A stretch of DNA of 64,000 nt from Halalkalicoccus tibetensis (lineage in GTDB: Archaea > Halobacteriota > Halobacteria > Halobacteriales > Halalkalicoccaceae), in contig NZ_JBBMXV010000006.1 in NCBI RefSeq assembly GCF_037996645.1, forward strand, positions 1 through 64,000, read 5' to 3'. The position numbers and the translations under genes are program-made. Shown here in pieces: positions 26,543 through 47,377 of this stretch (its first letter is position 1; each line of letters starts with the position of its first letter). The notes below the pieces were generated by a model. The model did not search any database. It worked only from the letters and a program-made list of their open reading frames with translations, and was not told the origin of the DNA.

Positions 26543-28315
26543 TTATAGATCTAAGAGTAACTCTCGCATTTCAGCACTGATCGCCATATCACTCCCCTCA
26601 GTGCTACTGACAAGATGAGCAAAGGTTGCAAACCTCCATAGAGTATTCGGATCAACGCCGCTAAGATTCTCCATCACAGGCGGTTTGATCGAGGGTGACG
26701 AACCACTGCGACCAGCGACAACTTGAACGGCTGTCAGTACCGGCGACCCTGATCCAAACACGTCATCAGCCTTCTTGAGGGCAGCATCCTCTGACCCAGA
26801 AACCAATTTCTGTTTAATCTCCACGAGAGCCTCCCGCTTCCTGAGGCTGAAATGAGGTGATGATACGTTCCTGTAACACCGGAGAGCTGCGTCAAATTCT
26901 CTGGCATCCTCTAATCGGATCGCCTCGGCTAACTCATCGAGTGTGTATAGAAGATCTTCATTTACGTCCGTCGACATCCTATCTAGATGATCTCGTGTCT
27001 CAACGATGTGGTCTTGCATACGGTCGAGATCACCATATTCAAACGCAGCGACCGCCGCAGCTTGATTTCCACGGAATTTGTGAGAACTAAGAGCTAATAG
27101 AATGGTTTCTTGGAGAGTCTTATCCTCCTCGAACTCTGAATCAAGCTGGCAAAGAACTCCGATAGCAGTTTCATGTAGTTGCCGGCTAGATTCCCATCCT
27201 CGAGCTGGACCCCATCCACGGTCAGGCTGTCGGACAGCCACTGCTTGAGATCGGAACGCGCGACTCATATATTTCACATACCGATTCGCATCTATTGGTT
27301 TGATGTACTCTGCTGCACTGATGAAATCCCTAGCAGCCCCCATAAAATTTGGATCGGGCCTTTGACGAGGATCTCGTTGGGACTGCCATTGGCGACTACT
27401 CTGTAGTTCCCCACTCGCTAACTTCTGATACGACTTGGCACGTAACACTCGTTCGTCGGACATTCGATCTTCAAAACAATTTACCAAAGTCTGGAGCTGC
27501 CAAGATGCTAACTGGAGCTCACCCCGCCATGGATTCTCACGTGACTTGTGCCGATAGCGTTCAACGATGTCCCTTCCATTGAGATAAAGATAGTCCGCTA
27601 CCACATCCAAATCTGGCTGTTCTAAGCGAGCAAGTCCAGTCTGCTGAAGTCCTACTTTTTCGGGATCAGCATACGGAGTGTTCACTGCTGCTTCAAGAAT
27701 ATCATCCGCGGATCGATCGTCATCCTGACGCCGGTCTGGCATGTCTGTGAAGAATCTCTCAATATGCGGATTGAGAACTACCATATCCGAACCAAAGGAC
27801 TGCATCGCTGCGGCAAATCTGATCTGCGCAAGGAGTTCGATTGTTTCCGTCGGGAGGTCCGGCGTCTCCGTGAACAAGGCGTCTACGAGCTCATAGATAC
27901 GCTCCGGATCGTCCTTAGCGTCGACGAGGTGTTCCAAGATAGTGAATACAACCGACCGGGGAGAAACGTGCTCAACGTTGATCGACTGGAAAGCTTCGAT
28001 CCGGTGATTGAGTTCAGCTGCAGTCGTAATGTGATATCGTCTACCAGCCTGACTATCTCGAAGAACCATATTTTTCAGCATTCGGCTAGCGTTGTCTTCG
28101 ACGAAAGTTTCGACTGTTCCTGTTGAATCTGTTTTCAAGCAGGTGTTGTAGAATGCGAGGTAGTCATCGAAGGAGTCTAACGAGGTTTTAGCTGCGTTAC
28201 GAAGCGTATCAAAGCAATCACTCTCATTGTCGAAGTCGGCAGCTATTTTGGGGAAGGTAGTGGAGCCTGACAGAAGATTGGTAAGGTAATCGTCAGTTGA
28301 GGCCTGAGTTGTCAT
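26543..28315 (-). CDS. Large helical hypothetical protein (590 aa)
   Basis: A 590-residue soluble protein, almost wholly alpha-helical in appearance, with repeating helix-pair patterns (for example VADYLYLNGRDIVERYRHKS and LYTLDELAEAIRLEDAREFD) like TPR or ARM-type scaffolds. No catalytic motif. It is divergent from the TIR-like gene at 28530 across about 215 bp. Being alone, large and next to defence genes, it could be a sensor or scaffold of the neighbouring system; that is inference from position only. Confidence 0.72.
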   Translation of the reverse strand: MTTQASTDDYLTNLLSGSTTFPKIAADFDNESDCFDTLRNAAKTSLDSFDDYLAFYNTCLKTDSTGTVETFVEDNASRMLKNMVLRDSQAGRRYHITTAAELNHRIEAFQSINVEHVSPRSVVFTILEHLVDAKDDPERIYELVDALFTETPDLPTETIELLAQIRFAAAMQSFGSDMVVLNPHIERFFTDMPDRRQDDDRSADDILEAAVNTPYADPEKVGLQQTGLARLEQPDLDVVADYLYLNGRDIVERYRHKSRENPWRGELQLASWQLQTLVNCFEDRMSDERVLRAKSYQKLASGELQSSRQWQSQRDPRQRPDPNFMGAARDFISAAEYIKPIDANRYVKYMSRAFRSQAVAVRQPDRGWGPARGWESSRQLHETAIGVLCQLDSEFEEDKTLQETILLALSSHKFRGNQAAAVAAFEYGDLDRMQDHIVETRDHLDRMSTDVNEDLLYTLDELAEAIRLEDAREFDAALRCYRNVSSPHFSLRKREALVEIKQKLVSGSEDAALKKADDVFGSGSPVLTAVQVVAGRSGSSPSIKPPVMENLSGVDPNTLWRFATFAHLVSSTEGSDMAISAEMRELLLDL

Positions 28316-28529
28316 GGAGATAAAAAAGGATTAATCGATAAAAATGCTAGGGTAGTATCACTAACCCCCAATATGTCGTCGTCTGGAACTCTTCCTCAAT
28401 CGCGACAATATGCTACTGATGGAGTAGTCTCTCAACATAACTTCACACAGATTACTATCAATCACCTCGAGAAACAGAGATGACATCCATCTCGAAGCGT
28501 TTTTACGTTTTGGCGGAGTGTGCTATCAT

Positions 28530-28961
28530 ATGTCGTATTCATTTAAAAGTAATGATCGGCGAAGCACCTATCGGCTCTTTCTCAGCCACTCGTGGAGTTA
28601 TGATGATGAGTACGAACGGATGGTTGATCTCTTAAACGAGAAATCTAATTTTTCATGGGATAACTACAGTGTTCCAGAAAAGGACAAGGTCAATGCGACG
28701 ACGACCGCTGGTCTCAAGCGAGTGCTTAAGAATAAACAGATTAAACCGGCAACCGTAGTTGTTATTCTCAGTGGTATGTACGCTGAACATAGCACCTGGA
28801 TCAAGCGAGAAGTGCGAATTGCAAACGAACTTGACAAGCAAATCCTCGCCGTGAAACCCCACGGGAACACACGGATACCGATCTACATCCGAAATAGAGC
28901 GGATAAGACCGTTAACTGGAGTACGAACTCGGTAGTTAGGGCTATCCGCGACCTCGCTTGA
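28530..28961 (+). CDS. TIR-like (DUF1863/ThsB-type) protein
   Basis: About 143 residues. It opens with a TIR-type first strand YRLFLSHSWSYDDEYERMVD, then the segment LLNEKSNFSWDNYSVPEKDK, then VVVILSGMYAEHSTWIKREV and LAVKPHGNTRIPIYIRNRAD. This is the layout of MTH538-type TIR-like proteins, the family of the Thoeris sensor ThsB, which make a nucleotide signal from NAD on infection. ATG 28530 is preferred to GTG 28518. Its stop overlaps the ATG of the next gene (TGATG), so the two are one unit. There is no ThsA gene, so this is not a classical Thoeris pair. Confidence 0.88.
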   Translation: MSYSFKSNDRRSTYRLFLSHSWSYDDEYERMVDLLNEKSNFSWDNYSVPEKDKVNATTTAGLKRVLKNKQIKPATVVVILSGMYAEHSTWIKREVRIANELDKQILAVKPHGNTRIPIYIRNRADKTVNWSTNSVVRAIRDLA

Positions 28962-29614
28962 TGAGCGATCCGACCGAAGAAGATGAGCGGAGTAAAACCA
29001 GCAATCATACTAGTGGAGAGACGGACGCATCAGAGGTATCTGCATCACTAGAGTCCCCTGCTGCCGAGCTTGAGCAATGGAAGTTCTACGGTCAATCTAC
29101 TCACCAAGTAAGCAACCGCCGGCTTAAGAATAATCGCTTCTATCTACGACTTCTAATTGCGCTACTAGGCGTTGCTGGTATCGGGGCAAGATTGGGGTAC
29201 GTAACTCCTGTCGGAATTATGTTTATCGGTGCTATTGGTCTTCCTTTCTGCGTTCTTTGGACGTTCCATATCCTCTCGTATAAGCAACTGAACAGCGGAA
29301 AATATCGTGTTCTGTGGAAAATAGCTGAAGATCTCCCGTATGACCCATTCAAAATGGAATGGGAACGCCTCAAAGAAGGAGAGAAACCAGAGGTCTACAT
29401 AAAGCATACTACCGTCGAGGTCTGGTGGCCGCGCGTGTTCGGATTCTTTTATGCCGTTTTGTTCGTTTATGGGACGCTCTCACTGCTGGGGATGCTGAAT
29501 TACTATTGGTGGACGATTGCTGCTCTCGCCATTATTTGGGGAGTTTATGCATTCTTCGTAATTCGAGGTGAAAGTCCGACGCAGAGATACTGGGATTACA
29601 CTGGGGAAGAGTAG
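28961..29614 (+). CDS. RipA-like multi-pass membrane protein paired with TIR-like gene
   Basis: About 217 residues. The first 50 are acidic and disordered. Then come SNRRLKNNRFYLRLLIALLG (segment 1), PVGIMFIGAIGLPFCVLWTF (segment 2), the conserved middle YKQLNSGKYRVLWKIAEDLP and FKMEWERLKEG, and two more membrane segments. I recall this pattern from small membrane proteins annotated as RipA that lie next to TIR-like genes. The overlapping start implies stoichiometric synthesis with the TIR-like protein. A role as a membrane-damaging effector triggered by a TIR-made signal is a hypothesis. Confidence 0.8.
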   Translation: MSDPTEEDERSKTSNHTSGETDASEVSASLESPAAELEQWKFYGQSTHQVSNRRLKNNRFYLRLLIALLGVAGIGARLGYVTPVGIMFIGAIGLPFCVLWTFHILSYKQLNSGKYRVLWKIAEDLPYDPFKMEWERLKEGEKPEVYIKHTTVEVWWPRVFGFFYAVLFVYGTLSLLGMLNYYWWTIAALAIIWGVYAFFVIRGESPTQRYWDYTGEE

Positions 29615-29732: not shown

Positions 29733-31241
29733 ATGGATATGAGCCTCACTCTCCAGGACCTTGATGCGTACCTGTTTAAGTGCGCAGACATCATCCGAGA
29801 CGCGGTCGATTCGACCGATTATAAGGACTACATTCTCCCGCTTGTCTTCTACAAAGCAATCTCGGATGAGTTCGAGAAAGAGTACGAGCAAAACCTCGAG
29901 GAGTATGGCGAAGAGTTCGCTCGCCGACCGAACCTCTACGACGTCCCCGTCGTTCCCGAAGGCTATCTCTGGGACGATCTCCGGCAGGTCAGCGACAACG
30001 TTGATCAGGCACTCAACGAAGCCTTCGACAAGATCACCGAGGAGAACGAGGAGCTCGAAGGCGTGTTTCGTGCAGACTTCGTCGAAGCGGACGCCCTCAC
30101 TGACGATCGCCTGAACACCCTTCTCGAGCATCTCGATACCTACGACCTCGACCGAGAGAGCGTCCCCGCAGACATGCTCGGCGAGGCTTACATGGACCTC
30201 GTGCGCCACTTCGCTCAAGAAGAGGGCAAGTCCGGCGGGCAGTTCTTCACGCCGCCGCACATTGTCCAGCTCTGTGTGCGCCTCGTCGACGAGTTCGAGG
30301 ACGGCCAGGAGTTCCACGACCCGACCGTTGGCTCCGGCGGGATGCTCATCGAGGCCGCGAGGTACTACCGTGAGCAACAGGAGAACGACCCGACGAAGCT
30401 TCGGTTCACGGGCCAGGAGATCAACCCCGACATTGCGGCGATCGCTCGGATGAACCTCGCCATCCATGCGCTGAACGGTGAGATAGCCCGCGAGGACTCG
30501 CTCCTCCGACCTCAGTTCACTGACGAGGAGACAAAGGAACTGGAGCGGTTCGACCGCGTGCTCGCCAACTTCCCCTTCTCGGCGGACTGGGCGAAGGATG
30601 ACCTCCAAGACGACCCCTACAATCGGTTCGACTGGGACGAGAAACTGCCGCGTGCCGATCGGGGAGACTACGCGTTCATTCAGCACATGGCGAAACAGCT
30701 GAAGACGCCCGAGAAGGACGGGACGAGAGGAAAGGCCGCGATCGTCATCCCTCACGGGGTCTTGTTCAGAAAACACGAGTCGAAATACCGAGAGCCGATG
30801 ATCGAGAACGATCTGGTCGAGGCCATCGTCGGCCTCCCAGGTAACTTGTTCCAGAACAACTCGATTCCCTCGGCGATCCTGGTGTTGAACACGGACAAGC
30901 CCGCTGACCGCGAGGGCGAGGTCCAGTTCATCCACGCCGCAGACGAGGCGTTCTATCGAGAGCTCTCGAACCAGAACGAACTGACCGACGAGGGGCTGGA
31001 TCACATCGTCTCGAACTTCCGCGAGTGGACGACCGAGGAGCGCGTCAGTCGGGCGGTATCGCTGGAGGAGATCCGCGAAAACGACTATAACCTGAATATC
31101 GCGCTCTACGTCGACACGACCGAGCCGGAAGAGGAGATCGACGTCAAAGAGGAACTGGCGACGTTGCGCGAGCTACAGGCCGAGCGCGACGAAATCGAGA
31201 GCCGAATGACCCAGCACATGGAGGCCCTCAGCTATGAGTGA
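29733..31241 (+). CDS. hsdM: Type I restriction-modification DNA methyltransferase subunit
   Basis: A 502-residue N6-adenine methyltransferase. An N-terminal helical domain is followed by the SAM site: GGQFFTPPHIVQLC, then motif I DPTVGSGGM (residues 196-204), then the catalytic motif IV as NFPF (279-282) where most have NPPF or NPPY. C-terminal helices contact HsdS. With HsdS it methylates one recognition sequence. First of four overlapping genes (HsdM, HsdS, HsdR, metallopeptidase), all plus strand. An A-rich promoter-like stretch lies before the ATG. Confidence 0.96.
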   Translation: MDMSLTLQDLDAYLFKCADIIRDAVDSTDYKDYILPLVFYKAISDEFEKEYEQNLEEYGEEFARRPNLYDVPVVPEGYLWDDLRQVSDNVDQALNEAFDKITEENEELEGVFRADFVEADALTDDRLNTLLEHLDTYDLDRESVPADMLGEAYMDLVRHFAQEEGKSGGQFFTPPHIVQLCVRLVDEFEDGQEFHDPTVGSGGMLIEAARYYREQQENDPTKLRFTGQEINPDIAAIARMNLAIHALNGEIAREDSLLRPQFTDEETKELERFDRVLANFPFSADWAKDDLQDDPYNRFDWDEKLPRADRGDYAFIQHMAKQLKTPEKDGTRGKAAIVIPHGVLFRKHESKYREPMIENDLVEAIVGLPGNLFQNNSIPSAILVLNTDKPADREGEVQFIHAADEAFYRELSNQNELTDEGLDHIVSNFREWTTEERVSRAVSLEEIRENDYNLNIALYVDTTEPEEEIDVKEELATLRELQAERDEIESRMTQHMEALSYE

Positions 31242-32649
31242 GGAGGCGACGCTGGACGAGTTTGTTGATCGGGACGAGAAGGAATCGAACCAATCGAAAC
31301 CGGTCACTGACGAGTTAGAACAGGAACAATTCGGGCCCTTCACGCTTTCAACTCCTGGAGAATGGACTGCGAAGCGGCTCGGAGACATCAAACAACTAAT
31401 CACAAGGGGCAAACAGCCAACCTACGATGATGACGGCGTCCCTGTAATCAATCAAGAATGTATCTATTGGAACGGGTGGCACTTCGAGAATCTTCGCTAT
31501 CTTGATGCGGAAGTTGCTGAGGATTGGAAAGATAAGTACTTCCCTCAGAAAGGAGATATTATTCTGAACTCTACCGGACAAGGAACTCTCGGTCGAGCAC
31601 AAGTCTATCCTGATAACGAGCGACGAGCTATTGATTCTCATGTTACGCTTCTCCGAACTACTGATGAACTGAGCCCCTATTTCCACCGTTACTTCTTAGA
31701 GAGTTATCTTGGACAAGCCCTTCTCTATTCGATGTGTGTAAACGGCTCGACTGGACAAATCGAACTCTCCAAAACTCGACTTGACCTCCAGCCTATTCCC
31801 CTTCCACCACTCGAAGAACAGCGCAAAATCGCCAGCGTGCTCTACAACGTCGATCAGGCGATTCAGAAGACGGAAGAAACGATAGGTCAACTGGACCGTA
31901 CTCGGAAGGGTATAGAACAAGACTTGCTCTCGCGAGGAATCTCGTCGACTGGATCTCTACGAGAAGAGGATGAAATAGAATATAAAAGTAGTTGGGTCGG
32001 AAAAATACCCCTTGACTGGGAGGTTCGACAATACGAAGAATTGATTACGAAGTCCTCTGTCGGAATTGTTGTCAAACCATCTCAATATTATGATAATTCC
32101 GGGAGTATCCCTATTCTCCGTTCCAAAGATATTGGCCGTGATGGGATTGTTGATGGTAATTTCAAATATATGACCGAGGAATCAAATAAAGAAAATCCGA
32201 GTAGCCAAGTACATACGGAAGATGTCATCACGGTACGGTCAGGGGATCCTGGATTATCATGTGTTGTATCACATCAATATAATGGAGTCAATTCTGCGGA
32301 TTTGCTCATCTCTACCCCGGGGCCCGAGCTCAATTCACATTTCGCGGCAATGTGGATCAACTCGTTCGCAGGACGAAAACAGATAGATAGATTCCAAGCG
32401 GGGTTAGCTCAAAAACACTTCAACCTCGGAGCACTTCGAAAACTACGGATTGCCGTACCCTCACTTGAAGAACAAACCCGTATAGTCGATACGGTGGCAT
32501 CGGTAACAGACGATATTGCTCAGGAAAACTCATATCTGAACCAACTCAAGCGTCTGAAACAGGGCCTCATGCAAGACCTCCTTTCCGGGAAAATCCGAAC
32601 CCACGACAAGGACATCGAGATCCTCGACGAGGTCGCCCAACATGGTTAG
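31234..32649 (+). CDS. hsdS: Type I restriction-modification specificity subunit
   Basis: A 471-residue protein with two target-recognition domains (about residues 40-190 and 250-410), each followed by a helical spacer ending PLPPLEEQRKIASVLYNVDQ and PSLEEQTRIVDTVASVTDDI. Each domain reads half of a bipartite DNA sequence. The recognition domains are visibly more A/T-rich than the spacers, as is usual for exchangeable DNA-recognition cassettes. It overlaps hsdM by 8 bp and hsdR by 8 bp. Target sequence not predictable from the protein. Confidence 0.95.
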   Translation: MSEEATLDEFVDRDEKESNQSKPVTDELEQEQFGPFTLSTPGEWTAKRLGDIKQLITRGKQPTYDDDGVPVINQECIYWNGWHFENLRYLDAEVAEDWKDKYFPQKGDIILNSTGQGTLGRAQVYPDNERRAIDSHVTLLRTTDELSPYFHRYFLESYLGQALLYSMCVNGSTGQIELSKTRLDLQPIPLPPLEEQRKIASVLYNVDQAIQKTEETIGQLDRTRKGIEQDLLSRGISSTGSLREEDEIEYKSSWVGKIPLDWEVRQYEELITKSSVGIVVKPSQYYDNSGSIPILRSKDIGRDGIVDGNFKYMTEESNKENPSSQVHTEDVITVRSGDPGLSCVVSHQYNGVNSADLLISTPGPELNSHFAAMWINSFAGRKQIDRFQAGLAQKHFNLGALRKLRIAVPSLEEQTRIVDTVASVTDDIAQENSYLNQLKRLKQGLMQDLLSGKIRTHDKDIEILDEVAQHG

Positions 32650-35614
32650 CCTCCCGTCCGAACAAGCCGTCGAACGTTCGCTCCTCCAGTGGCTCGACAC
32701 CGTCGGATGGGAGACACACGGCATGGACGGCGGGCGCGGCGCGGAGATCCTCGACGACACCTATGGCCGCGACACACACGAGGTCATCTACTGGGACCTC
32801 CTCGCCGAGCAAGTCATCGCCCTGAACAAGGAGATCACCGACGAGAACGTCGAGCGCTTCGTCTCCTCTCTGAAGCGTGATCTCGACCACGACAACCTGA
32901 TGGACGGCAATCGTGCGTTCTACCAGCTCCTGACCAAGGGCAAGAAGTTCAGCGTCACACGCAGGGATGGCTCGACGGAGTACGTCTACATCGACCTGAT
33001 CGACTTCACGCATCCCGAGACCAACCGCTTCCATGCTGTCAACCAGTTCGTCGTTTCCCGAGGGAGTGGGACGACCATTCGCCCGGACGTCAACCTGTTC
33101 GTCAACGGCATCCCCCTGGTGACGATGGAGCTCAAGGCGATTACCCAGGACAACGACTACTACGACGCGATCAGACAACTTCGCCGGTACGAGGAGGACG
33201 TCCCGCGGCTGTTCATCCCTGGCCTGTTCAACATCGCCGCCGACACCATGGAGCTTCGCTACGGGGCCGTCGGTGCACCCACGGAGTTCTACGAGGAGTG
33301 GAACGATGCGCCGCCGGAGTATCAGGATGACAACGAGATGAAACAGTCCGTCCAGGCGCTCTGTAACCCCGGGACGGTCTTGGAGATCCTGAAGCACTTC
33401 GTGTTCTACGAGCGTCGTGCGGGCGGTGACGCGAAGATCGTGCCCCGCTACATGCAATACTATGCGGTGAACAGAATCCTAGAGCGCGTCAACGAGGGTG
33501 ATCCGGTGGCCGAAGTCCTCAACAAAGGGCTGATCTGGCATACCCAGGGCTCGGGCAAGTCCTTCACGATGCTCTACGCGGCGCAGAACCTCCTCTCTCG
33601 AGACGTCCTCGATACTCCCCAGGTCTTCATCATTGTCGACACGGCCAAGCTGGCGAGCCAGATGCGCGACGTCCTTTCGAACATCGGATTCGAGCGTTCA
33701 GTGGTCGCTGACAGCATCCGCCACCTCCAGGAGTTGATCGAGGACGGTCAAAGCCAGCTCGTCCTCACGACTATCCAGAAGTTCGCCGACGTCGACCCCG
33801 ACGTCCAGGGCAATGACGAAGTAGTCGTTATGTCTGACGAGGCACATCGCTTCATGGAGGAGGACCTCGGAAGCCGCCTCGAGGCCGCAATGCCCGTTAA
33901 CTTCCACTTCGGGTTCACTGGCACTCCGATCCGAGAGGGCGAACGAGAAAAGGACCACAACACGTTCCGCGAGTTCTCACCCGAAGGCGAGGAGTACCTT
34001 CACAGATATTCCATCAAGCAAGGCATCGACGACGGACTCATCCTTCCTGTCTACTTCACCCTCCGACATCAGATGGAGTGGGAGGTCGACGAGGCGGGAC
34101 TCGATGAGGAGTTCGAACGTGAGTTCGCCGGTCTCACTCCTGACGAAAAGCGCGAGTTCATCCAAGAGCACGTCACCAGCCGAGAGCTGGCCGAACTCGA
34201 ACCACGTGTCGACCGCATCGTTGAGGAGATCGACGAGCACTACGCTGGCGTCGAGAAGAACGGTTGGAAAGGCATGGTCGTCACGCCGAGCCGTGAGTCT
34301 GCCGCGATGTACGGCGAGCGACTCATCGAACGCCGGGGCGAGGACGAGGTCGAGGTACTCTATACTGCGACCAGTGCTGACAAGCCCCTTATCCGCCAGT
34401 TCCATACTGATGACGAGGAACGGGACCAGATCATCAAGCAATTCAAGCAAGAAGAGAACCCGAAGCTCCTCGTCGTTCACAACATGCTCCTGACTGGCTT
34501 CGACGCGCCTATCCTGAAGACGATGTATCTCGATCGCAACCTGACGGATCACAACCTCATGCAGGCGATCGCCCGGACGAACCGAACCGCAGAGGGCAAA
34601 GAGAACGGCGAGATCGTCGACTTCCAGGGAGTCTTCGAGAACATTGACGAGGCGCTCGATTACGACACCGAGACGAAGGCCTACGCCGCCCGCGACAAGG
34701 ACGAGCTCTTCGAGGAACTTACTGATCAACTCGAGTACGTCCTCTCGATCTTTGACGGCATCCCGATGGACGACACGCAGGAGACGGTCGATCAGTGTCT
34801 CGCACGGGTTAGCACGCACCCGGAGAAGCGGAACTTCAAACAGGGCTTCCGCCGGCTTCAGGACCTCTACGAGTCCGTCTCACCCGATGGCCGACTCGTC
34901 ACCGAAGGCATTCAGGACGACTACAAGTGGCTCGTACGCATCCACACGGCCTTCCAACGCCACAACAATCGTGAGGAGAACCCCGAAGACTCGATGCGAG
35001 AGAAGACCAGAGAGATTCTCGAGAGCCACGTCGACGTCGGCGAGATCAAACGAGACTTCCCGGTCTACGAGCTCAGCAAGGAGCACTTGGAGGCGGTCGA
35101 GAGCATGAGCGAGCCCGCTACCCAGGCGACGAGTATCGCACATGCGACGCAGGATCACCTTCAAACTCGGACGGGACAGAACCCACGGTACAAGCGCTTG
35201 AGCGAGCGTGTGAACGAGATCGTCGAGGACTGGCAGCACGGGAACCGAAGCGACCCTGATGCTGTCGAAGCCCTCACCGCGGTCGAAGAAGAGATACTCG
35301 AGTTCGAGACGGAAGCCGAGCGACGGGGGATGACCGATGCCGAGTTCGCGATCTATACGCACCTTACAGAGGAGACCCCAGATGCTATCAACGGGGAGGC
35401 CCAGGCTGAACAAGTCGCACGGGATATCGTTGAGGCGTTCGAAGAGAGAGTCGACCGGGACTATCGCGGATGGAAGACCAACAGGACGACACTACAAAAT
35501 ATCGATCGGATCCTGTTAGATGTCGTCGTTGTTGACCACGGCCTGCGAGATCTGATGGTCGAAGGGAGTTTCGACGAGGGCGTTCGTGAATACCTGATCC
35601 GGAATTATGCCTGA
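32642..35614 (+). CDS. hsdR: Type I restriction endonuclease/translocase subunit
   Basis: A 990-residue protein. The N-terminal nuclease has IRPDVNLFVNGIPLVTMELK (Asp149, Glu163-x-Lys165). The SF2 motor has motif I TQGSGKS (301-307) and motif II DEAH (399-402), then FHFGFTGTPI (motif III) and motif VI LMQAIARTNRTAEGKENGE. It pumps DNA past the bound complex and cleaves away from the site. Overlaps hsdS and the metallopeptidase gene. The set is complete and intact, so the system is probably active. Confidence 0.96.
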   Translation: MVSLPSEQAVERSLLQWLDTVGWETHGMDGGRGAEILDDTYGRDTHEVIYWDLLAEQVIALNKEITDENVERFVSSLKRDLDHDNLMDGNRAFYQLLTKGKKFSVTRRDGSTEYVYIDLIDFTHPETNRFHAVNQFVVSRGSGTTIRPDVNLFVNGIPLVTMELKAITQDNDYYDAIRQLRRYEEDVPRLFIPGLFNIAADTMELRYGAVGAPTEFYEEWNDAPPEYQDDNEMKQSVQALCNPGTVLEILKHFVFYERRAGGDAKIVPRYMQYYAVNRILERVNEGDPVAEVLNKGLIWHTQGSGKSFTMLYAAQNLLSRDVLDTPQVFIIVDTAKLASQMRDVLSNIGFERSVVADSIRHLQELIEDGQSQLVLTTIQKFADVDPDVQGNDEVVVMSDEAHRFMEEDLGSRLEAAMPVNFHFGFTGTPIREGEREKDHNTFREFSPEGEEYLHRYSIKQGIDDGLILPVYFTLRHQMEWEVDEAGLDEEFEREFAGLTPDEKREFIQEHVTSRELAELEPRVDRIVEEIDEHYAGVEKNGWKGMVVTPSRESAAMYGERLIERRGEDEVEVLYTATSADKPLIRQFHTDDEERDQIIKQFKQEENPKLLVVHNMLLTGFDAPILKTMYLDRNLTDHNLMQAIARTNRTAEGKENGEIVDFQGVFENIDEALDYDTETKAYAARDKDELFEELTDQLEYVLSIFDGIPMDDTQETVDQCLARVSTHPEKRNFKQGFRRLQDLYESVSPDGRLVTEGIQDDYKWLVRIHTAFQRHNNREENPEDSMREKTREILESHVDVGEIKRDFPVYELSKEHLEAVESMSEPATQATSIAHATQDHLQTRTGQNPRYKRLSERVNEIVEDWQHGNRSDPDAVEALTAVEEEILEFETEAERRGMTDAEFAIYTHLTEETPDAINGEAQAEQVARDIVEAFEERVDRDYRGWKTNRTTLQNIDRILLDVVVVDHGLRDLMVEGSFDEGVREYLIRNYA

Positions 35615-36338
35615 AACCGATACGGCAGAATGTTTTAAAATGACGTTGGCCGGGAAACCTATCGAATATCGAGTCTTACAGAGTCGAGAGGCGGCTGAGC
35701 CTCGTATCGACGTCGACATTCGAGGTATTCGAGTGGTAATACCGTACGATAGGCAGGAGGATCCAGAAGAGCTCTTAGCTGACAACGCGGCCTGGATTCT
35801 CGAGAAGAAAGCCAAGTACGACCAGTACCGCGAGCAAGCACCTGAACGGGTCTTTGAGGCTGGTGAGACGTTTCCCTTCCTCGGCAAGGACCGCGAGCTT
35901 ATTATCGAACCCCGGGCGAAGCACGAACTCGATGGCAGTATAGTTTGCCTCCGTGAAAGTGCGGTTGCCCAGTCGTCCGTAAAACGAGTCCTCGAGAATT
36001 TCTATCGATCGCAAGCACGTGACTACCTGACTGAGCGAGCGGATCATTATGCTGACGAGATGGATGTCACGTACGAGAAACTGGAGCTACGGAATCAGCG
36101 TACGAGGTGGGGATCCTGTTCGACGTCGGGAACCCTAAGCCTGAATTGGCGGCTGATGATGGCTCCCCCAGACGTTATCGATTACGTCGTTGTCCATGAA
36201 CTCGCGCATTTACGGTTCCAGGATCACAGCCAACAGTTCTGGGACTGTGTTGGTCAATACGTCCCTGATTACAGGGAGCACAGCGACTGGCTGGACCAAC
36301 ACAGTGCCGAGCTAATTTTCAGTCAAGCTGACCTCTAG
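35607..36338 (+). CDS. YgjP-like (DUF45) zinc metallopeptidase in RM operon
   Basis: A 243-residue protein with the YgjP/SprT-like core RWGSCSTSGTLSLNWRLM and VVHELAHLRFQDHSQQFW, where HELAH (197-201) plus His207 bind zinc. Small metallopeptidases of this kind are a usual fourth gene of type I RM operons. They may trim or control HsdR, but the role is not established. It overlaps the hsdR stop by 8 bp, so it is translated with it. Confidence 0.92.
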   Translation: MPETDTAECFKMTLAGKPIEYRVLQSREAAEPRIDVDIRGIRVVIPYDRQEDPEELLADNAAWILEKKAKYDQYREQAPERVFEAGETFPFLGKDRELIIEPRAKHELDGSIVCLRESAVAQSSVKRVLENFYRSQARDYLTERADHYADEMDVTYEKLELRNQRTRWGSCSTSGTLSLNWRLMMAPPDVIDYVVVHELAHLRFQDHSQQFWDCVGQYVPDYREHSDWLDQHSAELIFSQADL

Positions 36339-37339
36339 AGGGTATGTTAACATAGAACATGTGGGAGGAATGCAAAAATCCGGTTGGTGGCAACATCCAG
36401 TATGTACATACAGACTGCCTCAGTGGATGTACCGAGCATAGTTAGTGAACTGATTTATTGAATCTTTTGAGGAGAATTATCTAAATACTTTTCGTACTAC
36501 GCGAGGCAACCGAATAAAGGAGGAAAGTCTACCTAATATCGTCTATATTATGTTGTATAAAGAGATTGTAACGGTGCCCTCCTGATACCATTCAAACAAG
36601 TTAGATTAGAGACTCATTTGGTAGATAGTCAGAGAGTCCCCGAGTTAATCTCGTGGCCTGTACTGCCCCCATCTGCTCTTACCCTCAGTGAAAAGTTCCC
36701 GAATGAGCTGCCGACACCACAGGCGGCCGGGTAAGGGGACCCCCGGTTCGAGAAACCGGCGTAATCTGAACAGAGAGATCAGAACTAAGCACTGTCCTGG
36801 GCATAAGCCTATTCAGTGATCGTCGACGAGAAAACTCTCTTTATCCTATTCAGAAACCCGAAGAGTGGATTTTGACTCGAAGTGCTATCGCTCCTATCCC
36901 GAGTCCACTATAAATCATTAAATCGAGGACATTCAGCGATCCTGCGTCCAGGAAAACTAGGATAGCGATCAGGAGCCCGATACAGACGCCTGCAAGGTAG
37001 CCATACGACTAGTAGCGAGAATTATCTACAACCATCACTGCACTCACGATAGAAACCGGAACTACTTACTAGAAGAGGCCATGCGGCAAGATACCTTGTT
37101 GAACAAGAACGGGAACGATCTCAACAATCAACCCGACACCTCTCTCAATGCCGTGATCAAGACCTAGCATCTATCAGGATGTTGCGGTACAATAATAGAG
37201 TGCTTCGTCTGTACCAACTTGTATCTAATAGCTGGTTACAGCTCTAACTGGCCCTCGGTTTCACTTTCAATTTGAATGGGGAACTAATATACGGTCAGCC
37301 ATACCACGTTCAAGAAACAGCGTTGTCGGAGGCACACTT
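36339..37339. other. Intergenic region of 1 kb with gene remnants
   Basis: No intact gene. Apart from the membrane-protein remnant at 36878-37169, there is a hairpin CCGGTT-CGAGA-AACCGG near 36751-36768 that superficially looks like a tRNA T-arm but has no matching acceptor, D- or anticodon arm. The rest is A/T-rich without structure I can name. Confidence 0.55.
36878..37169 (-). pseudogene. Remnant of a hydrophobic membrane protein
   Basis: On the minus strand one frame reads DHGIERGVGLIVEIVPVLV and, after stops, GYLAGVCIGLLIAILVFLD then GSLNVLDLMIYSGLGIGAIA, typical of membrane segments. Stop codons near 37070 and 37010 break it, and no start remains. Original identity unknown. Confidence 0.45.
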
Positions 37340-38437
37340 ATGCATATCCCCGAAGGCCAATACAATCTCAAGGAGTTCTGTCGAGTTATTTTCGACTCGC
37401 CAGAGTCTGTCCTAGAGGGATATCATGGACAACGCATCAAATCGTTCTTATACCTCTCAGATGATGGCTGGCGCGATTACCTTGACCAACATTACGAGAC
37501 CGAGGAACTCGGCGGGATAACGAAGTTCGTCGGAGAGTATACGAATAGGAAAGGAGCAGACCAGGCAGCTAAATTCTACGTCGGGGAGTATAAGGACGAT
37601 CTCCAAATGGTGCTCACTGCCGAAACCGAGGAGGCTATTCGACAAGCCTTACGCCCGGTGTCAGAGCACAGTGACTGCCTGTCACCGATGCCGATTATGA
37701 CTGAGGACTTCCAGACAATGAACGAGATCGTCCTCAGTAGTTACGATAATATGCGAATCGCCGAGTTCAAATCGAAGCGCGTGCCGAGTCTGGCGGACGC
37801 TCGAACCCGACCGGATGTTGATCGAGAGATCGAATACAAAGGTATCGACGGCCGCGACCGCCTCGACGAATTTCGTGAGGAGTACGGTGTTGTCCCGACC
37901 CGTATTCAATACGAACATGAGAATGTTTCCATTAGGATCGATACCTCTGGCAAGTTCACATTAGAGACCGTCAATCAGGAGAGCTTCAATATCCTGTTCG
38001 AACTGCTCAGCGAGGTGGTCGTGAACGTTCTCGAATTGCTCGATGTAGCGAATCAGATCAAGTTCGAGAAGCGTGAGGTGGAGCCGGGAAACTTGAAAAT
38101 CCAAGTGCCAGAGGTGAGTTCTGGTGAAATAGATTTTGATCACCCAGTGACGTTGATGCAAGCCGAGAGTTTCATCAAGGGGACTAAGAATAGCGATAAT
38201 CTGAACTTCAGCTTCACCGATGTCACAAAACAAGCCGGTTCACTGGACTTCTCCGCACAGGTAACGGACGAGAATAGAGGGTCGCTTTTCAACGTAAGTG
38301 CAACTGAGGAATCGATGCGGATTGTTCCGAAGCATAACTGCTCGTTCCCATCTCTCGTTGAGTTCTATCTCGCAGTAATCCAGATGTTGGACGGTGGGGC
38401 GAAGATGAAACTTTACGACTCTCAGACTGCAGCATAA
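37340..38437 (+). CDS. Unrecognised protein, first gene of a two-gene module
   Basis: A 365-residue soluble protein starting MHIPEGQYNLKEFCRVIFDS. It seems to have an N-terminal domain of about 130 residues, a middle with VRIQ/ISIRID-like strands, and a C-terminal beta-rich domain ending FYLAVIQMLDGGAKMKLYD. No catalytic motif. Its stop is 1 bp before the ATG of the nuclease-like gene at 38439, so they are a unit. Placed after the RM operon in a defence-like region. A sensor or complex partner is one possibility. Confidence 0.78.
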   Translation: MHIPEGQYNLKEFCRVIFDSPESVLEGYHGQRIKSFLYLSDDGWRDYLDQHYETEELGGITKFVGEYTNRKGADQAAKFYVGEYKDDLQMVLTAETEEAIRQALRPVSEHSDCLSPMPIMTEDFQTMNEIVLSSYDNMRIAEFKSKRVPSLADARTRPDVDREIEYKGIDGRDRLDEFREEYGVVPTRIQYEHENVSIRIDTSGKFTLETVNQESFNILFELLSEVVVNVLELLDVANQIKFEKREVEPGNLKIQVPEVSSGEIDFDHPVTLMQAESFIKGTKNSDNLNFSFTDVTKQAGSLDFSAQVTDENRGSLFNVSATEESMRIVPKHNCSFPSLVEFYLAVIQMLDGGAKMKLYDSQTAA

Positions 38438-38438
38438 T

Positions 38439-39524
38439 ATGACAAACGTTGACCCTCCCGATTCGGTGCCAGAGGGTCAAGAAACGACATACCGCGGGCT
38501 ATACGGCAAGTGTATTCATCATAAGTTCCGAGAGTTCCCGGAGCAGTCCAAACGTGAGACGCTCCGTGGAGAGATCGATGTCCAGCGCCACCACCGCAAA
38601 CTTATCAGCTACTCTATCTTCCCGTTCGCAGAAGGGAGCCCTGCGGGGTACAAGTTCATCACTGCTGAGCCGCTAGAGGAACTCGACGTTCCAAACTTTG
38701 ATTTCTTACTTTGGAACCTTGATGGGAGTGTGATATTCGGTGAAGCAAAATCTTCGATTCCCGATAGCGCAGCCACTGTTGTGAACCAGCTTCAAGAACG
38801 AAAAGAGGTGGCAGAAGATCACAAGGAGTACATCGAAGAAGAGTATCTTGGGAGCGAGATTAACCATATGGAGTTTGTGGTGGCGACATACGTCAATCAT
38901 GGCGACAAGATTGCGAAGGAAATCATCGAGACCGGTGCGGAATTTATTACGTGGGTAGTGGATGCTCACTCTGATACGCTGTGGATCCGGCAGGCAAGAC
39001 CCAGGTCATTTCCTGACAACTTGGAATCTGACGATCCTGACGCTATGCTTGAAGAGCTTGACCGCCGACATACTCACGACATTTCGTCTCTGAACAGTGA
39101 ACTGGATCGGGTGACCACGAGCTTCGGGCAGGCAGATGTTCTACCGACTTCAATCATTGTAGACCGTCTACGTGTTGTCGTACAGTCTCGCCGGGTTGAA
39201 GATCGATACCCGTGTGTTGATCGTGGAAATATTGAGAAGTATGTGTCGAATAGCGCGTTGAACTACTCCGATGAGCGCATCTCAGAGATCGTCGATGAGC
39301 TCATTGAATCGGGGAAGCACCTCAACTTCTTGTCTGAATGGGATGATGATCGAGCAGAGTTCAAGATCGTGTCCAACTACACAGCCAAAGATGATCTTGA
39401 GCGAGCACTCGAAAACAAGTGGGTAGACTGGCGGATCGAGGGAATGAAAGACCAGTTACGAGACGCGTGTGAGGAGCGTATTATTGCAGAATTCGGAAAG
39501 CAGAGTCAACTTGATGAGTTCTAG
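38439..39524 (+). CDS. PD-(D/E)xK-type nuclease candidate, second gene of the module
   Basis: A 361-residue protein. Residues 84-110 read NFDFLLWNLDGSVIFGEAKS, with Asp88, Glu102 and Lys104 matching a PD-(D/E)xK metal site, preceded by YSIFPFAEGSPAGYKFITAE. The C-terminal third has two winged-helix-like segments (CVDRGNIEKYVSNSALNYSD then RISEIVDELIESGKHLNFLS). It is tightly coupled to the gene at 37340. This domain set (nuclease plus wHTH with an unknown partner) is typical of defence genes, but I do not know a described system of this exact pair. Confidence 0.8.
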   Translation: MTNVDPPDSVPEGQETTYRGLYGKCIHHKFREFPEQSKRETLRGEIDVQRHHRKLISYSIFPFAEGSPAGYKFITAEPLEELDVPNFDFLLWNLDGSVIFGEAKSSIPDSAATVVNQLQERKEVAEDHKEYIEEEYLGSEINHMEFVVATYVNHGDKIAKEIIETGAEFITWVVDAHSDTLWIRQARPRSFPDNLESDDPDAMLEELDRRHTHDISSLNSELDRVTTSFGQADVLPTSIIVDRLRVVVQSRRVEDRYPCVDRGNIEKYVSNSALNYSDERISEIVDELIESGKHLNFLSEWDDDRAEFKIVSNYTAKDDLERALENKWVDWRIEGMKDQLRDACEERIIAEFGKQSQLDEF

Positions 39525-42599: not shown

Positions 42600-44321
42600 A
42601 TGGGTAACAATAATCCAGATTCGGAAGAGGTAGCACAAGCTACAGAAGAGGTGAAAGAGAAGCGTTCTAAGAGATTCGAGGTTCTTAATAATAGACCTGT
42701 CAACAAGGATGGGCTAGTCGAAGAGTGGCCAGAGGTGGGGTTTGTCGCAATGGAATCCCCGGACGATCCTGACCCCTCAATTACGATCGAAGATGGGACC
42801 GTTGTTGAGATGGATGGGATTGTACGAGAGGATTTTGATTTTGTTGATCAGTTTATTGCTGATTACGCGATAAACCCCAGCGTAGCTGAGGAAGCCCTCG
42901 AAATCGATTCAGTAGAGTTTGCTCATATGCTGGCAGATATCAATGTTCCTCGTGAGGAGATTAGACGATTAGCAACCGGGATGACTCCAGCGAAGCTCAC
43001 AGAGGTTGTTAATCAGATGAATACTGTCGAGATGATGATGGCGCTTCAAAAGGTCCGTACTCGTAAAAACCCTGGAAATCAGTGTCACGTGACAAGCGTC
43101 AAGGACCACCCAGCGCAGTTGGTTGCCGATGCGGCTGAGTCTGCACTTCGGGGTTTTGATGAAGCTGAGACAACAGTTGGGATTACACGTATTGCTCCAT
43201 TCAATGCCCTCTCCTTACTGATTGGAACTCAATGCGGTAGAGGTGGTGTATTGACACAGTGTGCAGTTGAGGAAGCGACTGAGCTCGAACTGGGAATGCG
43301 AGGGATGACCAGTTACGCTGAAACGGTCTCCGTGTACGGTACTGAGGACGTTTTCAAAGACGGCGATGATACACCATACTCGAAAGCGTTCCTCGCATCC
43401 GGATATGCTTCGCGAGGGGTGAAAATGCGATTCACATCTGGATCGGGATCAGAGGTGAACATGGGGCAGGCAGAGGGAAAATCCATGCTCTACCTCGAAA
43501 CGAAATGTGTATTGGTGACAAAAGGGTGTGGTGTCCAAGGACTCCAGAATGGGTCAATCAGTACCGTTGCTATTCCAGCAGCAGTTCCTTCTGGACTTCG
43601 ATGCATCCTTGCTGAAAACCTCATCGCAGGTATGGTTGATTTAGAGATGGCCTCTGGGAACGATCAGACATTCACACATTCGGAAACACGCCGAACAGCA
43701 CATATGATTCCCCAGATGTTCCCAGGGACTGATTTCATATTCTCTGGCTACAGTGCCGTACCGAACTACGACGATATGTTTGCCGGCTCTACTTTCGACT
43801 CGTCAGACTTTGATGATTACAACCTTATTCAGAGAGATTTCAAAGTTGACGGTGGTACCAAAGATGTCGAAGAAGAAGAGGTCGTCAAATATCGCAACCG
43901 CGCAGTCAAAGCGCTCCAAGCGGTTTTTGAAGAACTTGGTTTCCCACCAATTACCGACGAAGAGGTTGAGGCAGCCACGTATGCGGATGGTAGCGATGAC
44001 ATGCCTGACCGAAACCAAGCTAAAGACATCGAGGCTGCACAGGAGTTAATGGAGCGTGAAATTACGGGAGCAGATATCGCTAAGATATTGGCTGACCGTG
44101 GATTCGAAGATATCGCAGAAAATATCACTGGTATCCTTAGATCGCGTGTTTCTGGTGATTACCTCCACACCTCTGCGATTCTCGATGAGGAATTCAATGT
44201 GGTGAGCGCAGTTAACAATCCGAATGATTACGAAGGGCCTGGGACTGGATACCGGATTAGCGATGACCGCTGGGAAGAAATCAAGAACTATCGCCACGCT
44301 ATTGATCCAAAAGATGTCTAA
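42600..44321 (+). CDS. pduC: Diol/glycerol dehydratase large subunit (B12-dependent)
   Basis: About 573 residues, the normal length of the alpha subunit. Almost every active-site segment of the Klebsiella enzymes is present: NQCHVTSVKDHP (catalytic His), ETTVGITRIAPFNA (Glu), ATELELGMRGMTSYAETVSV, GVQGLQNGS (Gln) and MASGNDQTFTHSE (Asp). It converts propane-1,2-diol or glycerol to the aldehyde by adenosylcobalamin radical chemistry. ATG 42600 is preferred to TTG 42594. First gene of five in the same direction. Distinguishing diol from glycerol specificity needs structural comparison. Confidence 0.97.
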   Translation: MGNNNPDSEEVAQATEEVKEKRSKRFEVLNNRPVNKDGLVEEWPEVGFVAMESPDDPDPSITIEDGTVVEMDGIVREDFDFVDQFIADYAINPSVAEEALEIDSVEFAHMLADINVPREEIRRLATGMTPAKLTEVVNQMNTVEMMMALQKVRTRKNPGNQCHVTSVKDHPAQLVADAAESALRGFDEAETTVGITRIAPFNALSLLIGTQCGRGGVLTQCAVEEATELELGMRGMTSYAETVSVYGTEDVFKDGDDTPYSKAFLASGYASRGVKMRFTSGSGSEVNMGQAEGKSMLYLETKCVLVTKGCGVQGLQNGSISTVAIPAAVPSGLRCILAENLIAGMVDLEMASGNDQTFTHSETRRTAHMIPQMFPGTDFIFSGYSAVPNYDDMFAGSTFDSSDFDDYNLIQRDFKVDGGTKDVEEEEVVKYRNRAVKALQAVFEELGFPPITDEEVEAATYADGSDDMPDRNQAKDIEAAQELMEREITGADIAKILADRGFEDIAENITGILRSRVSGDYLHTSAILDEEFNVVSAVNNPNDYEGPGTGYRISDDRWEEIKNYRHAIDPKDV

Positions 44322-44381
44322 AAATACCTCCATCTGGTGCAAATTGATCAGCTACAAACTAAGATCAGGAAAACTACTACC

Positions 44382-44954
44382 ATGAGTCAAACAGAACAAC
44401 GAAAACGGACGGTCACGTTCGAAGATATTGGGCCTGCGGAGAAAGGTACCACCCCCGATGAGGTTGTCATCGCCTTGAGCCCGGGGTTCGGCGAAATAAG
44501 CACAGAAACACTGTCTGGGATCTCTCACGCCGAGATACTCCGTGAGACAATGGCGGGTATAGAAGAAGAAGGCGTCTCAATGCGTATTGTTCGCGTGTAC
44601 GATACTGTCGACCTAGGTCGGATGGGACTTATCTCCTCGAATCTCAGTGGTTCCGGTATTAGTATCGCGGTTCAAGCGAGAGGTACTACACTGATCCACC
44701 AGGAGGATCTATTACAGCTTGATAATCTAGAGCTCTTCCCCCAAGGACCGTTGCTAGTGCCGGAGACGTTCCGTGCAATCGGCCAAAACGCTGCCCGCTA
44801 TGCAAAAGGTGAGAGTCCAGCTCCTGTCACGGTTGAAAATGACCCTATGACACGGCCAAAATTCCAAGCAATGGCGGCTATTTGGCACATAAAAGAGACA
44901 GAACGACTCGGTGAAGATCGCGGACAAGTCGAATTAGACGTCAACTTCAGCTAA
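44382..44954 (+). CDS. pduD: Diol/glycerol dehydratase medium subunit
   Basis: About 190 residues. It has GTTPDEVVIALSPGFGEIST, RIVRVYDTVDLGRMGLISSN and LSGSGISIAVQARGTTLIHQ, all conserved in the beta subunit, which with alpha binds the cobalamin. ATG 44382 (MSQTEQRK) is chosen; the frame up to 44337 is not conserved. It starts 60 bp after pduC. Confidence 0.95.
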   Translation: MSQTEQRKRTVTFEDIGPAEKGTTPDEVVIALSPGFGEISTETLSGISHAEILRETMAGIEEEGVSMRIVRVYDTVDLGRMGLISSNLSGSGISIAVQARGTTLIHQEDLLQLDNLELFPQGPLLVPETFRAIGQNAARYAKGESPAPVTVENDPMTRPKFQAMAAIWHIKETERLGEDRGQVELDVNFS

Positions 44955-44967
44955 TACACTACCAACA

Positions 44968-45372
44968 ATGAACGATTCAGACAAAGTTGAGTACCCGTTA
45001 TCCGATAACCCTGATCAAGTAGAAACGCCAGATGGAACGAGGCTCTCTGAAATCACGCTTGAAGCAATTGTCAACGGAGACATTAATGGTGATGATATCG
45101 CTATCTCGCCAGAGACACTAGAAAAACAAGCACAGGTAGCTGAACAGGAGGGGCGACCACAGTTAGCACAGAACTTCCGTCGCGCAGCAGAGTTGACAAC
45201 TATTCCTGATGAACGGATCCTTGAAATCTATAATGCACTCCGACCTAGCGGAGCAGAGAAGCAAACACTCCAAGAAATGGCTGACGAGCTCGAAAATGAG
45301 TACAATGCCCAAATTAACGCTGATCTGGTTCGAGAAGCTCTTGAAGTATACGAAAAGAGAGGACTTGTATAA
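44968..45372 (+). CDS. pduE: Diol/glycerol dehydratase small subunit
   Basis: A 134-residue protein with VEYPLSDNPDQVETPDGTRL then SEITLEAIVNGDI, and ISPETLEKQAQVAEQEGRPQ with LAQNFRRAAELTTIPDERIL, the gamma-subunit signature. The Klebsiella gamma subunit needs a solubilising N-terminal tail; this copy is short at that end. Starts 13 bp after pduD. It completes the (alpha-beta-gamma)2 enzyme. Confidence 0.95.
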   Translation: MNDSDKVEYPLSDNPDQVETPDGTRLSEITLEAIVNGDINGDDIAISPETLEKQAQVAEQEGRPQLAQNFRRAAELTTIPDERILEIYNALRPSGAEKQTLQEMADELENEYNAQINADLVREALEVYEKRGLV

Positions 45373-45469
45373 TCTCTACATACTGCTTAAGCTGTAGAGT
45401 GTACCTTCCATCGTAAGAGTAGAGAGTAGATGGCCAAGAATAGATAATCAGCCCCAAACCAGAGAACAC

Positions 45470-47377
45470 ATGGATTATATCGCAGGCATAGACATTGGTA
45501 ATTCAAGCACTGAAGTGGCCCTCATTCGAAATAATAATGGATACGAATTCGTTGCAACCAGTCTATTTCGAACTACGGGCTTGAAAGGAACGGTAAAAAA
45601 TGTTCCCGGGGTCATAAATGCCCTTGAGCAAGCAGCCGAAAAGGCAGACATAGCTGTTGAGGACATAGACCGAATCCTCCTCAACGAAGCGGCTCCAGTC
45701 ATCGGTGATGTTGCTATGGAAACTATTACCGAAACAGTAATCACTGAATCAACGATGATCGGACATGACCCTTCGACACCAGGTGGTGTCGGTCTCGGGA
45801 CTGGAACGATCGTCGATATCACTGCCGATCGTGAAGCAATCACGGAGGAAGATGCAGTTATTGTCGTCGTACCAGCAGCAGTCGATTTCGCAGACGCTGC
45901 GGCGACGATCAATGAGTGGGCCGAACACGCTATTGATATTCAAGGTGCAATCGTTCAGAAAGACGATGCAGTCCTAATCAACAATCGCATTGACCAAGAT
46001 ATTCCAATCGTCGATGAAGTAACTAAAATTGAAGCAATTCCGAGAGGCCAACCAGCTGCTGTAGAAGTAGCTACCGAAGGTTCGGGCCAGACAATCGATC
46101 AACTGTCTAATCCGTATGGTCTTGCGACGCTTTTCGACCTTTCTTCAGAAGAAACACAGAAAATTATCCCTGTTTCCCGCGCTCTTGTCGGGAACAAGTC
46201 CGCCGTCGTTATCAAAACGCCTGCCGGCGATGTCGAAGAGCGAACAATTCCAGCCGGCTCCTTGACTATTATCGGCGAACATGGCAATTCGGTATCGATC
46301 AACATTGATCAGGGAGCCGATAATATTATGACACAAATTGATGAGCTCTGGCCGATCGAGGACATCCAAGGCGAGCGCGGATCGAACATTGGCGGTATGT
46401 TGAGCAGAGCACGTGAGCAAATGGGAGAGGTGACTGGGCAAGACCACTCAGAGATCAATATTCGGGATATCATGGCTGTCGATACGCTCGTACCTCAAAA
46501 AGTCGAAGGGTCAGTTGCAAGTGAACATAGCATGGAAACAGCTGTCGGACTGGCAGCAATGGTTAAAACGAGTGAACTTCCCATGCAACAAATTGCTGAT
46601 GAAATCGAAAATCGGCTAGAAACGGAAGTTAACATCCAAGGAATTGAAGCAAATATGGCGATCTTGGGATCGCTAACGACTCCCGGAACGGATGTCCCTT
46701 TCGCGATTCTTGATATGGGTGGTGGATCAACGGATGCTGCATACATCAACGGTAACCATGAGATTAGTTCTATTCACTTAGCCGGTGCAGGGGACATGGT
46801 GACGATGCTGATTGCGTCTGAGCTTGGTCTTGACGATAGGGAACTGGCTGAAGGACTCAAAAAATATCCTGTCGCAAAGGTCGAGACACTGTTCAGCATT
46901 CGCCATGAGGATGGAACAGTCACCTTCCTTGATGAGGCAGTCGATTCCGAGACCTTTGGTCAAGTGGTACTTCTCAAGGGTGATGGTGAAATGGAGCCAG
47001 TTGGCATCGATGAATCTGTAGAAAAAATCCGACGTACCAGGCGCCACGCCAAAGAGAAAGTTTTTGTCACAAATGCTAAGCGTGCCCTACGGCAGATATC
47101 TCCCACTGAGAGTACTCGATACCACTCGTTTGTCGTAATGGTGGGGCGATCAGCACTCGACTTCGAAATCCCAGAGATGATCTCTGATGCCCTTGCTGAG
47201 TATGGCATCGTATGTGGACGTGGAAATATTCGCAGTACAACTGGGCCGCGAAATGCAGTCGCAACGGGCCTCTGCCTATCCTATGTTGGCGATCAGGCTG
47301 AATTCGACGTGAGTGTTCCTAATGGACTTGCATCAGCAGTTGGATTGACGGAACTTACTGGCGATAAGCAATCATGA
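45470..47377 (+). CDS. ddrA: Diol dehydratase reactivase, large (ATPase) subunit
   Basis: A 635-residue Hsp70-like ATPase: MDYIAGIDIGNSSTEVALIR at the phosphate-1 loop, PFAILDMGGGSTDAAYING at phosphate-2 and HLAGAGDMVTMLIASELGL. Reactivases release damaged cobalamin from inactivated dehydratase so that fresh coenzyme can bind. Length matches PduG/DhaF. It is 97 bp after pduE. Confidence 0.96.
   Translation: MDYIAGIDIGNSSTEVALIRNNNGYEFVATSLFRTTGLKGTVKNVPGVINALEQAAEKADIAVEDIDRILLNEAAPVIGDVAMETITETVITESTMIGHDPSTPGGVGLGTGTIVDITADREAITEEDAVIVVVPAAVDFADAAATINEWAEHAIDIQGAIVQKDDAVLINNRIDQDIPIVDEVTKIEAIPRGQPAAVEVATEGSGQTIDQLSNPYGLATLFDLSSEETQKIIPVSRALVGNKSAVVIKTPAGDVEERTIPAGSLTIIGEHGNSVSINIDQGADNIMTQIDELWPIEDIQGERGSNIGGMLSRAREQMGEVTGQDHSEINIRDIMAVDTLVPQKVEGSVASEHSMETAVGLAAMVKTSELPMQQIADEIENRLETEVNIQGIEANMAILGSLTTPGTDVPFAILDMGGGSTDAAYINGNHEISSIHLAGAGDMVTMLIASELGLDDRELAEGLKKYPVAKVETLFSIRHEDGTVTFLDEAVDSETFGQVVLLKGDGEMEPVGIDESVEKIRRTRRHAKEKVFVTNAKRALRQISPTESTRYHSFVVMVGRSALDFEIPEMISDALAEYGIVCGRGNIRSTTGPRNAVATGLCLSYVGDQAEFDVSVPNGLASAVGLTELTGDKQS

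Follow-up and report, generated by a model that had tools for sequence, protein, structure and literature searches.

A mobile two-gene cassette of archaea encoding a putative PD-(D/E)xK nuclease with a PIP-box-like tail

The described systems that most nearly resemble genes A and B, a pair located in a 64,000-nt stretch of Halalkalicoccus tibetensis DNA (contig NZ_JBBMXV010000006.1, forward strand; hereafter the window), are the archaeal nuclease NucS/EndoMS, the restriction-modification (RM) systems of types I and II, the candidate defence system HEC-02 of PADLOC, and the viral protein family phrog_24372. The likeness to NucS/EndoMS consists of a weak fold match of the B model, whereas B has a predicted extra C-terminal helical or winged-helix-like part, an obligate partner gene, a mobile and patchy distribution, and no match to the sequence family. 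RM systems likewise place a nuclease-type protein next to genes for DNA modification within islands, but A-B comes without a methyltransferase or specificity subunit and moves independently of the type I operon that neighbours it in the window. Neither protein has a significant profile match in PADLOC 2.0; the best is a weak and insignificant alignment of B residues 87-159 to HEC-02B, with an expectation value (E) of 0.02, and no component of HEC-02 matches A. Family phrog_24372, which has no assigned function, is a relative of A (E=2e-24 in PHROGs) and covers A only. Except for this unnamed viral family, the pair is absent from the family and defence libraries searched; no characterized pair matched it in family, defence or PDB searches, and the open-access literature searched yielded neither a description of such a pair nor a paper that couples immunity to the sliding clamp. 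The reading favoured here, with a probability of roughly one in two, is that A-B is a mobile antiviral or anti-element nuclease module; the sliding clamp PCNA would deliver it to replicating DNA, and A would be the subunit responsible for recognition or control.

A preliminary description of this DNA, made from its letters, had reported two open reading frames (ORFs) with a 1-bp gap, and both were found exactly there, on the same strand and behind a leader of their own:

37256..37339, + strand: cassette leader with promoter block and Shine-Dalgarno sequence, starting where DNA similarity to other copies begins
37278-37294, + strand: promoter block GGGGAACTAATATACGG with a TATA-like core, nearly invariant in an alignment of 11 leaders
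37328-37332, + strand: Shine-Dalgarno sequence GGAGG, 3' of the promoter block in the cassette leader
37340..38437, + strand: gene A, an ORF of 365 aa encoding the partner protein of B
38439..39524, + strand: gene B, an ORF of 361 aa encoding a PD-(D/E)xK nuclease-type protein with a C-terminal motif resembling a PCNA-interacting protein (PIP) box

When the whole window was used as a blastn query, each relative gave one long match that never extended beyond 37256-39522, a span made up of A, B and about 84 bp of leader, and the DNA neighbouring the pair was not shared; the module is therefore two genes with their own promoter. With up to two mismatches allowed, the 3.6-Mb genome has a single occurrence of the 17-mer GGGGAACTAATATACGG (control, 0), and a relaxed form of it occurs once per locus in most close-clade loci. 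No noncoding RNA or tRNA was found near the pair. The pairwise identities of A and of B correlate at 0.97, a figure to which shared ancestry contributes, and both genes are under strong purifying selection, the ratio of nonsynonymous to synonymous substitution rates (dN/dS) being 0.016-0.034 for A (where dS was measurable) and 0.06 for B against its nearest copy. A-B is a discrete mobile two-gene cassette. An RM system was considered and rejected because the shared block holds only A and B, within these boundaries, and no methyltransferase (A has no methyltransferase match).

Single-sequence searches of 292 Halobacteria genomes found A in 47 and B in 21, and A was detected in about one in six of the haloarchaeal species sampled. 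Together with the conserved pairing and the dN/dS values of 0.02-0.06, the 47 genomes with A homologues bear out the assumption that these are more than chance ORFs. A profile of A searched against 393 genomes of the phylum detected A also in families outside the order, with E down to 1e-95; a separate search with a profile of B returned the same genomes, fragments aside, and no solitary intact B. B comes directly after A at all of the complete loci examined, roughly 54 distinct ones (46 haloarchaeal, about 44 of them distinct, and 10 further), with a spacing in the haloarchaeal set of mostly -4 to +5 bp (overlap or gap). These loci come from Halobacteria and from other families within the phylum, and they include copies on plasmids and one in the pleolipovirus Harhisp1; the two genes are neither conserved apart from each other nor tied to a housekeeping pathway. 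The spread is patchy and horizontal: close copies (A 78-98% and B 76-94% identical) are scattered across several families; the nearest copy, in Halovenus rubra, belongs to a different family (A 98%, DNA 92% identical); and of five other genomes sampled from the window's own genus, four have no match and one has only a distant copy. In plasmid and phage collections, tblastn matched only haloarchaeal plasmids and Harhisp1, and scans of IMG/VR with A and three subfamily alignments, which used back-translated patterns and so do not show absence, returned no relative. One copy is carried by the Halorubrum lacusprofundi plasmid pHLAC01. This plasmid has been lost from the virus-sensitive laboratory strain, but it also bears a CRISPR locus matching the virus (PMC10544981). 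Only a remnant of A was found in one genome (G119); an in-frame TAG splits B beside an intact A on the Halapricum desulfuricans plasmid pHSR-Est01 (locus L083, counted among the loci above), an isolated decay of the nuclease gene; and contig4 of Haloterrigena sp. H1 bears two cassette copies (L099 and L100) about 112 kb apart with common downstream genes, as after a segmental duplication.

The features of B that bear on its predicted function are the following:

38544..38963, + strand: PD-(D/E)xK-like core (residues 36-175), placed by the motif and a low-confidence model; W172 is invariant
38700-38702 (D88), 38742-38744 (E102) and 38748-38750 (K104), + strand: catalytic-type residues in the PD-(D/E)xK pattern
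39144..39383, + strand: winged-helix-like stretch (residues about 236-315), suggested by the order of elements in a low-confidence model
39501..39521, + strand: PIP-box-like motif QSQLDEF (residues 355-361), the last seven residues at the very C-terminus

The motif makes a PD-(D/E)xK fold of B likely, although the structure model does not by itself prove that fold. D88, E102 and K104, which the preliminary description had pointed out, do not vary within the close clade. Distant members again show the D...E-x-K pattern, and this extends beyond Halobacteria; outside the order it mostly reads FD...ECK. An alignment of 48 B proteins has few strongly conserved positions (F63, P78-L79, D88, W172, L204 and L358), and single-sequence and whole-alignment searches of Pfam, NCBIfam, PADLOC, PHROGs and the PDB recovered no significant family for B. 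The models of both proteins were built from shallow alignments; that of B, from ten close sequences, is poor, with a predicted local distance difference test score (pLDDT) of 42, and has the order of elements expected for PD-(D/E)xK. Foldseek matched it to many nucleases of this fold (EcoO109I, Nt.BspD6I, NucS 2vld, Card1, EndoMS, SduA), each weakly, with a best E of 0.012 (EcoO109I) and none below 0.001. Where two winged-helix-like domains had been proposed, only the one stretch listed above is plausible.

The tail of B, missing from the preliminary description, is a PIP-box-type, putative PCNA-binding motif. Few residues are as conserved as L358, which is explained by its place in the C-terminal Q-x-x-L-x-x-F/Y motif. 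Of 38 B proteins, 25 have the strict form Q-x2-[LIM]-x2-[FYW] within their last 35 residues, where shuffled tails would give 0.63, and so do 15 of 609 neighbouring proteins; a loose form is present in 33 of the 38 B proteins. Two established PCNA clients encoded in the same genome share this type of tail (FEN1, QTGLDQWT; NreA, QASLADFSA), and B copies outside the order keep related tails such as QSTLSQF. The archaeal PIP consensus is QXXhXXaa, and the peptide KTTQSTLDSFFK has been seen bound to the PCNA of A. fulgidus (PMC4929162); the PIP motif of Haloferax is QxxLxxFx (PMC7776575). Binding of B to PCNA is predicted from these resemblances. A PD-(D/E)xK domain followed by a C-terminal PIP-box is also the arrangement of NucS (PMC4929162), and the weak matches that Foldseek gave include both 2vld and 5gke, as would be expected if B were a host DNA-repair nuclease of the NucS/EndoMS sort with no part in defence; that identity is nevertheless very improbable, given that Pfam scans of B and its relatives list no NucS match for the 36 members scanned and that the pair, which only a minority of species have, is missing from most near relatives and is often borne by plasmids or viruses.

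Protein A is comparable in size to B and more conserved, which suggests contacts with a conserved partner. T93, R162, D170, G183, G204 and P330 are invariant across 49 members, and the signature of the family is RP-x3-R-x3-Y-x-G-x-DG ... YGV-x-P. Single-sequence and whole-alignment searches of Pfam, NCBIfam, PADLOC and the PDB gave no match to A above noise, and its model, from a shallow alignment, is poor (mean pLDDT 49) and has no significant Foldseek match. Internal repeats, suspected from a beta-alpha-beta pattern, were not upheld by a profile comparison of the thirds of the protein.

The D/E/K site is intact in 30 of the 48 B proteins, reads E-x-E in three and S-x-K in one, and is lost in 14. 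At least three changes on the A tree are needed to account for the lost state, and the lineages concerned mostly retain the tail motif, strict or weakened. Directly upstream of A, seven lost-site loci and Harhisp1 have an extra gene of 113-199 aa whose product, where complete, has an N-terminal transmembrane (TM) segment; this gene occurs at L065, L066, L068, L069, L071, L072, L073 and L093, always with a degenerate-site B. In a nuclease-dead subclade, a pentapeptide-repeat gene lies upstream of A in divergent orientation:

L059, 7524-8984: pentapeptide-repeat gene
L108, 7426-8892: pentapeptide-repeat gene
L109, 7291-8817: pentapeptide-repeat gene
L127, 10576-12096: pentapeptide-repeat gene

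A pentapeptide-repeat protein gene also lies near A-B in Harhisp1. Replacement of the effector would explain the extra genes beside a dead-nuclease B, although related loci with a lost site and an extra gene are not independent observations. The same lineages bear on the proposal that A-B is a toxin-antitoxin or abortive-infection pair, in which B would harm host DNA at replication forks, A would hold B back until infection, and targeting would not be specific to the invader. The tight coupling of the two genes, the strong constraint on the first, the failure to find a solitary intact B, and a nuclease that would be aimed at replicating DNA generally all suit such a pair; however, most antitoxins are unlike A, which matches B in size and exceeds it in conservation, and dead-nuclease lineages keep both genes, for which a pure toxin-antitoxin pair would have no need, so that this proposal is considered quite unlikely.

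As the preliminary description had recognized, the cassette lies behind a complete type I RM operon; a TIR/ThsB-like gene is found further upstream:

28518..28961, + strand: TIR/ThsB-like gene (PADLOC ThsB1 model, E=3.5e-13), a defence-type neighbour upstream of the RM operon
29733..36338, + strand: hsdM-hsdS-hsdR type I RM operon with a YgjP-like metallopeptidase, a neighbour outside the cassette (HsdM 29733-31241, HsdS 31234-32649, HsdR 32642-35614 and, as the last gene, the metallopeptidase 35607-36338)

The operon and A are separated by 1,001 bp, and this stretch (36339-37339) contains no recognisable gene and no Rfam match. The TIR/ThsB-like gene is followed by a 217-aa gene of no known type (28961-29614), and a 590-aa gene, likewise of no known type, lies on the other strand (26543-28315); the region 26543-29614 is possibly a TIR-based defence module. 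Downstream of the island, 42600-47377 appears, from a by-eye reading of the protein sequence, to be a metabolic cluster of the B12-dependent diol dehydratase type. At other loci, the defence-type neighbours of A-B include McrBC, TrlF and DUF262; DUF499-DUF1156; a ThiF-JAB-E2 protein (E1-E2-JAB); a PLD-domain helicase with an Eco57I-type methylase; and an AddAB-like nuclease-helicase pair. Type I RM genes also adjoin copy L120, and a similarly arranged set of ORFs is found at L121, both in genomes outside the order. Other copies reside in pleolipoproviruses or near Cdc6/Orc1-type genes, the latter at several loci, and in Harhisp1 the pair stands directly before an Orc1-type rep. These replication-gene contexts and the PIP-like tail of B would suit a mobile-element accessory for replication, repair or maintenance, which on PCNA would process the replicating DNA of its own element or protect it; its nearness to defence genes would then come about only because plasmids and islands collect both. 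Such a role is held to be unlikely: most close-clade copies have no adjoining replication gene, the shared DNA is limited to the two genes and their promoter, and copies adjoin RM genes on contigs with no replication genes nearby.

In the favoured reading of A-B as a clamp-delivered nuclease module, B would be a PD-(D/E)xK endonuclease that also has a winged-helix-like region and docks on PCNA through the PIP-box at its extreme C-terminus, so that the sliding clamp would bring B to DNA under replication. A, which is always encoded first and is the more conserved protein, would be the partner that recognizes the invader or licenses cleavage. Once the clamp is loaded and an invading virus or plasmid is replicating, its DNA would be cut by the complex; in an abortive version, the cutting would extend to replicating DNA in general. 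Pleolipoviruses may carry their copies for superinfection exclusion. In several lineages, where B has lost its catalytic residues and mostly kept its tail, the TM-anchored small protein or the pentapeptide-repeat protein beside A may have replaced the nuclease as effector.

Several observations weigh against this reading. The structure models are poor (mean pLDDT 49 for A and 42 for B); roughly one B tail in three departs from the strict motif, and a few have no motif; 14 of 48 B proteins have a degenerate catalytic site, which means that cleavage is not universal; and copies L110, L124 and L126 are in metabolic surroundings with no visible defence genes. A PADLOC scan matched 244 families with 105 neighbours and 114 families with 112 same-replicon control genes, but these are counts of families rather than of genes per locus, and some control genes are themselves defence genes, so no measured enrichment is claimed. 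The suggestion in the preliminary description of a new restriction or abortive-infection system stands insofar as no known pair corresponds to A-B and many copies lie in defence islands; it is qualified by the copies in pleolipoviruses and by the degenerate site of several lineages, and immunity is a predicted function.

A wider and more tentative possibility, to which clearly less than even odds are given, is a new class of replisome-guided archaeal immunity, in which a complex of A and clamp-binding B would reach replicating foreign DNA by way of the host sliding clamp and cut it; the two proteins would form a core whose effectors (the B nuclease, a membrane protein or a pentapeptide-repeat protein) differ by lineage, and pleolipoviruses would have taken it over. 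Little is known of archaeal defence outside CRISPR and RM: in a 2026 survey, close to one archaeal genome in three had no defence system beyond these two (PMC12988326). A-B recurs across Halobacteria and other families of the phylum. If B is indeed delivered by PCNA, immunity in these archaea would be coupled to the sliding clamp.
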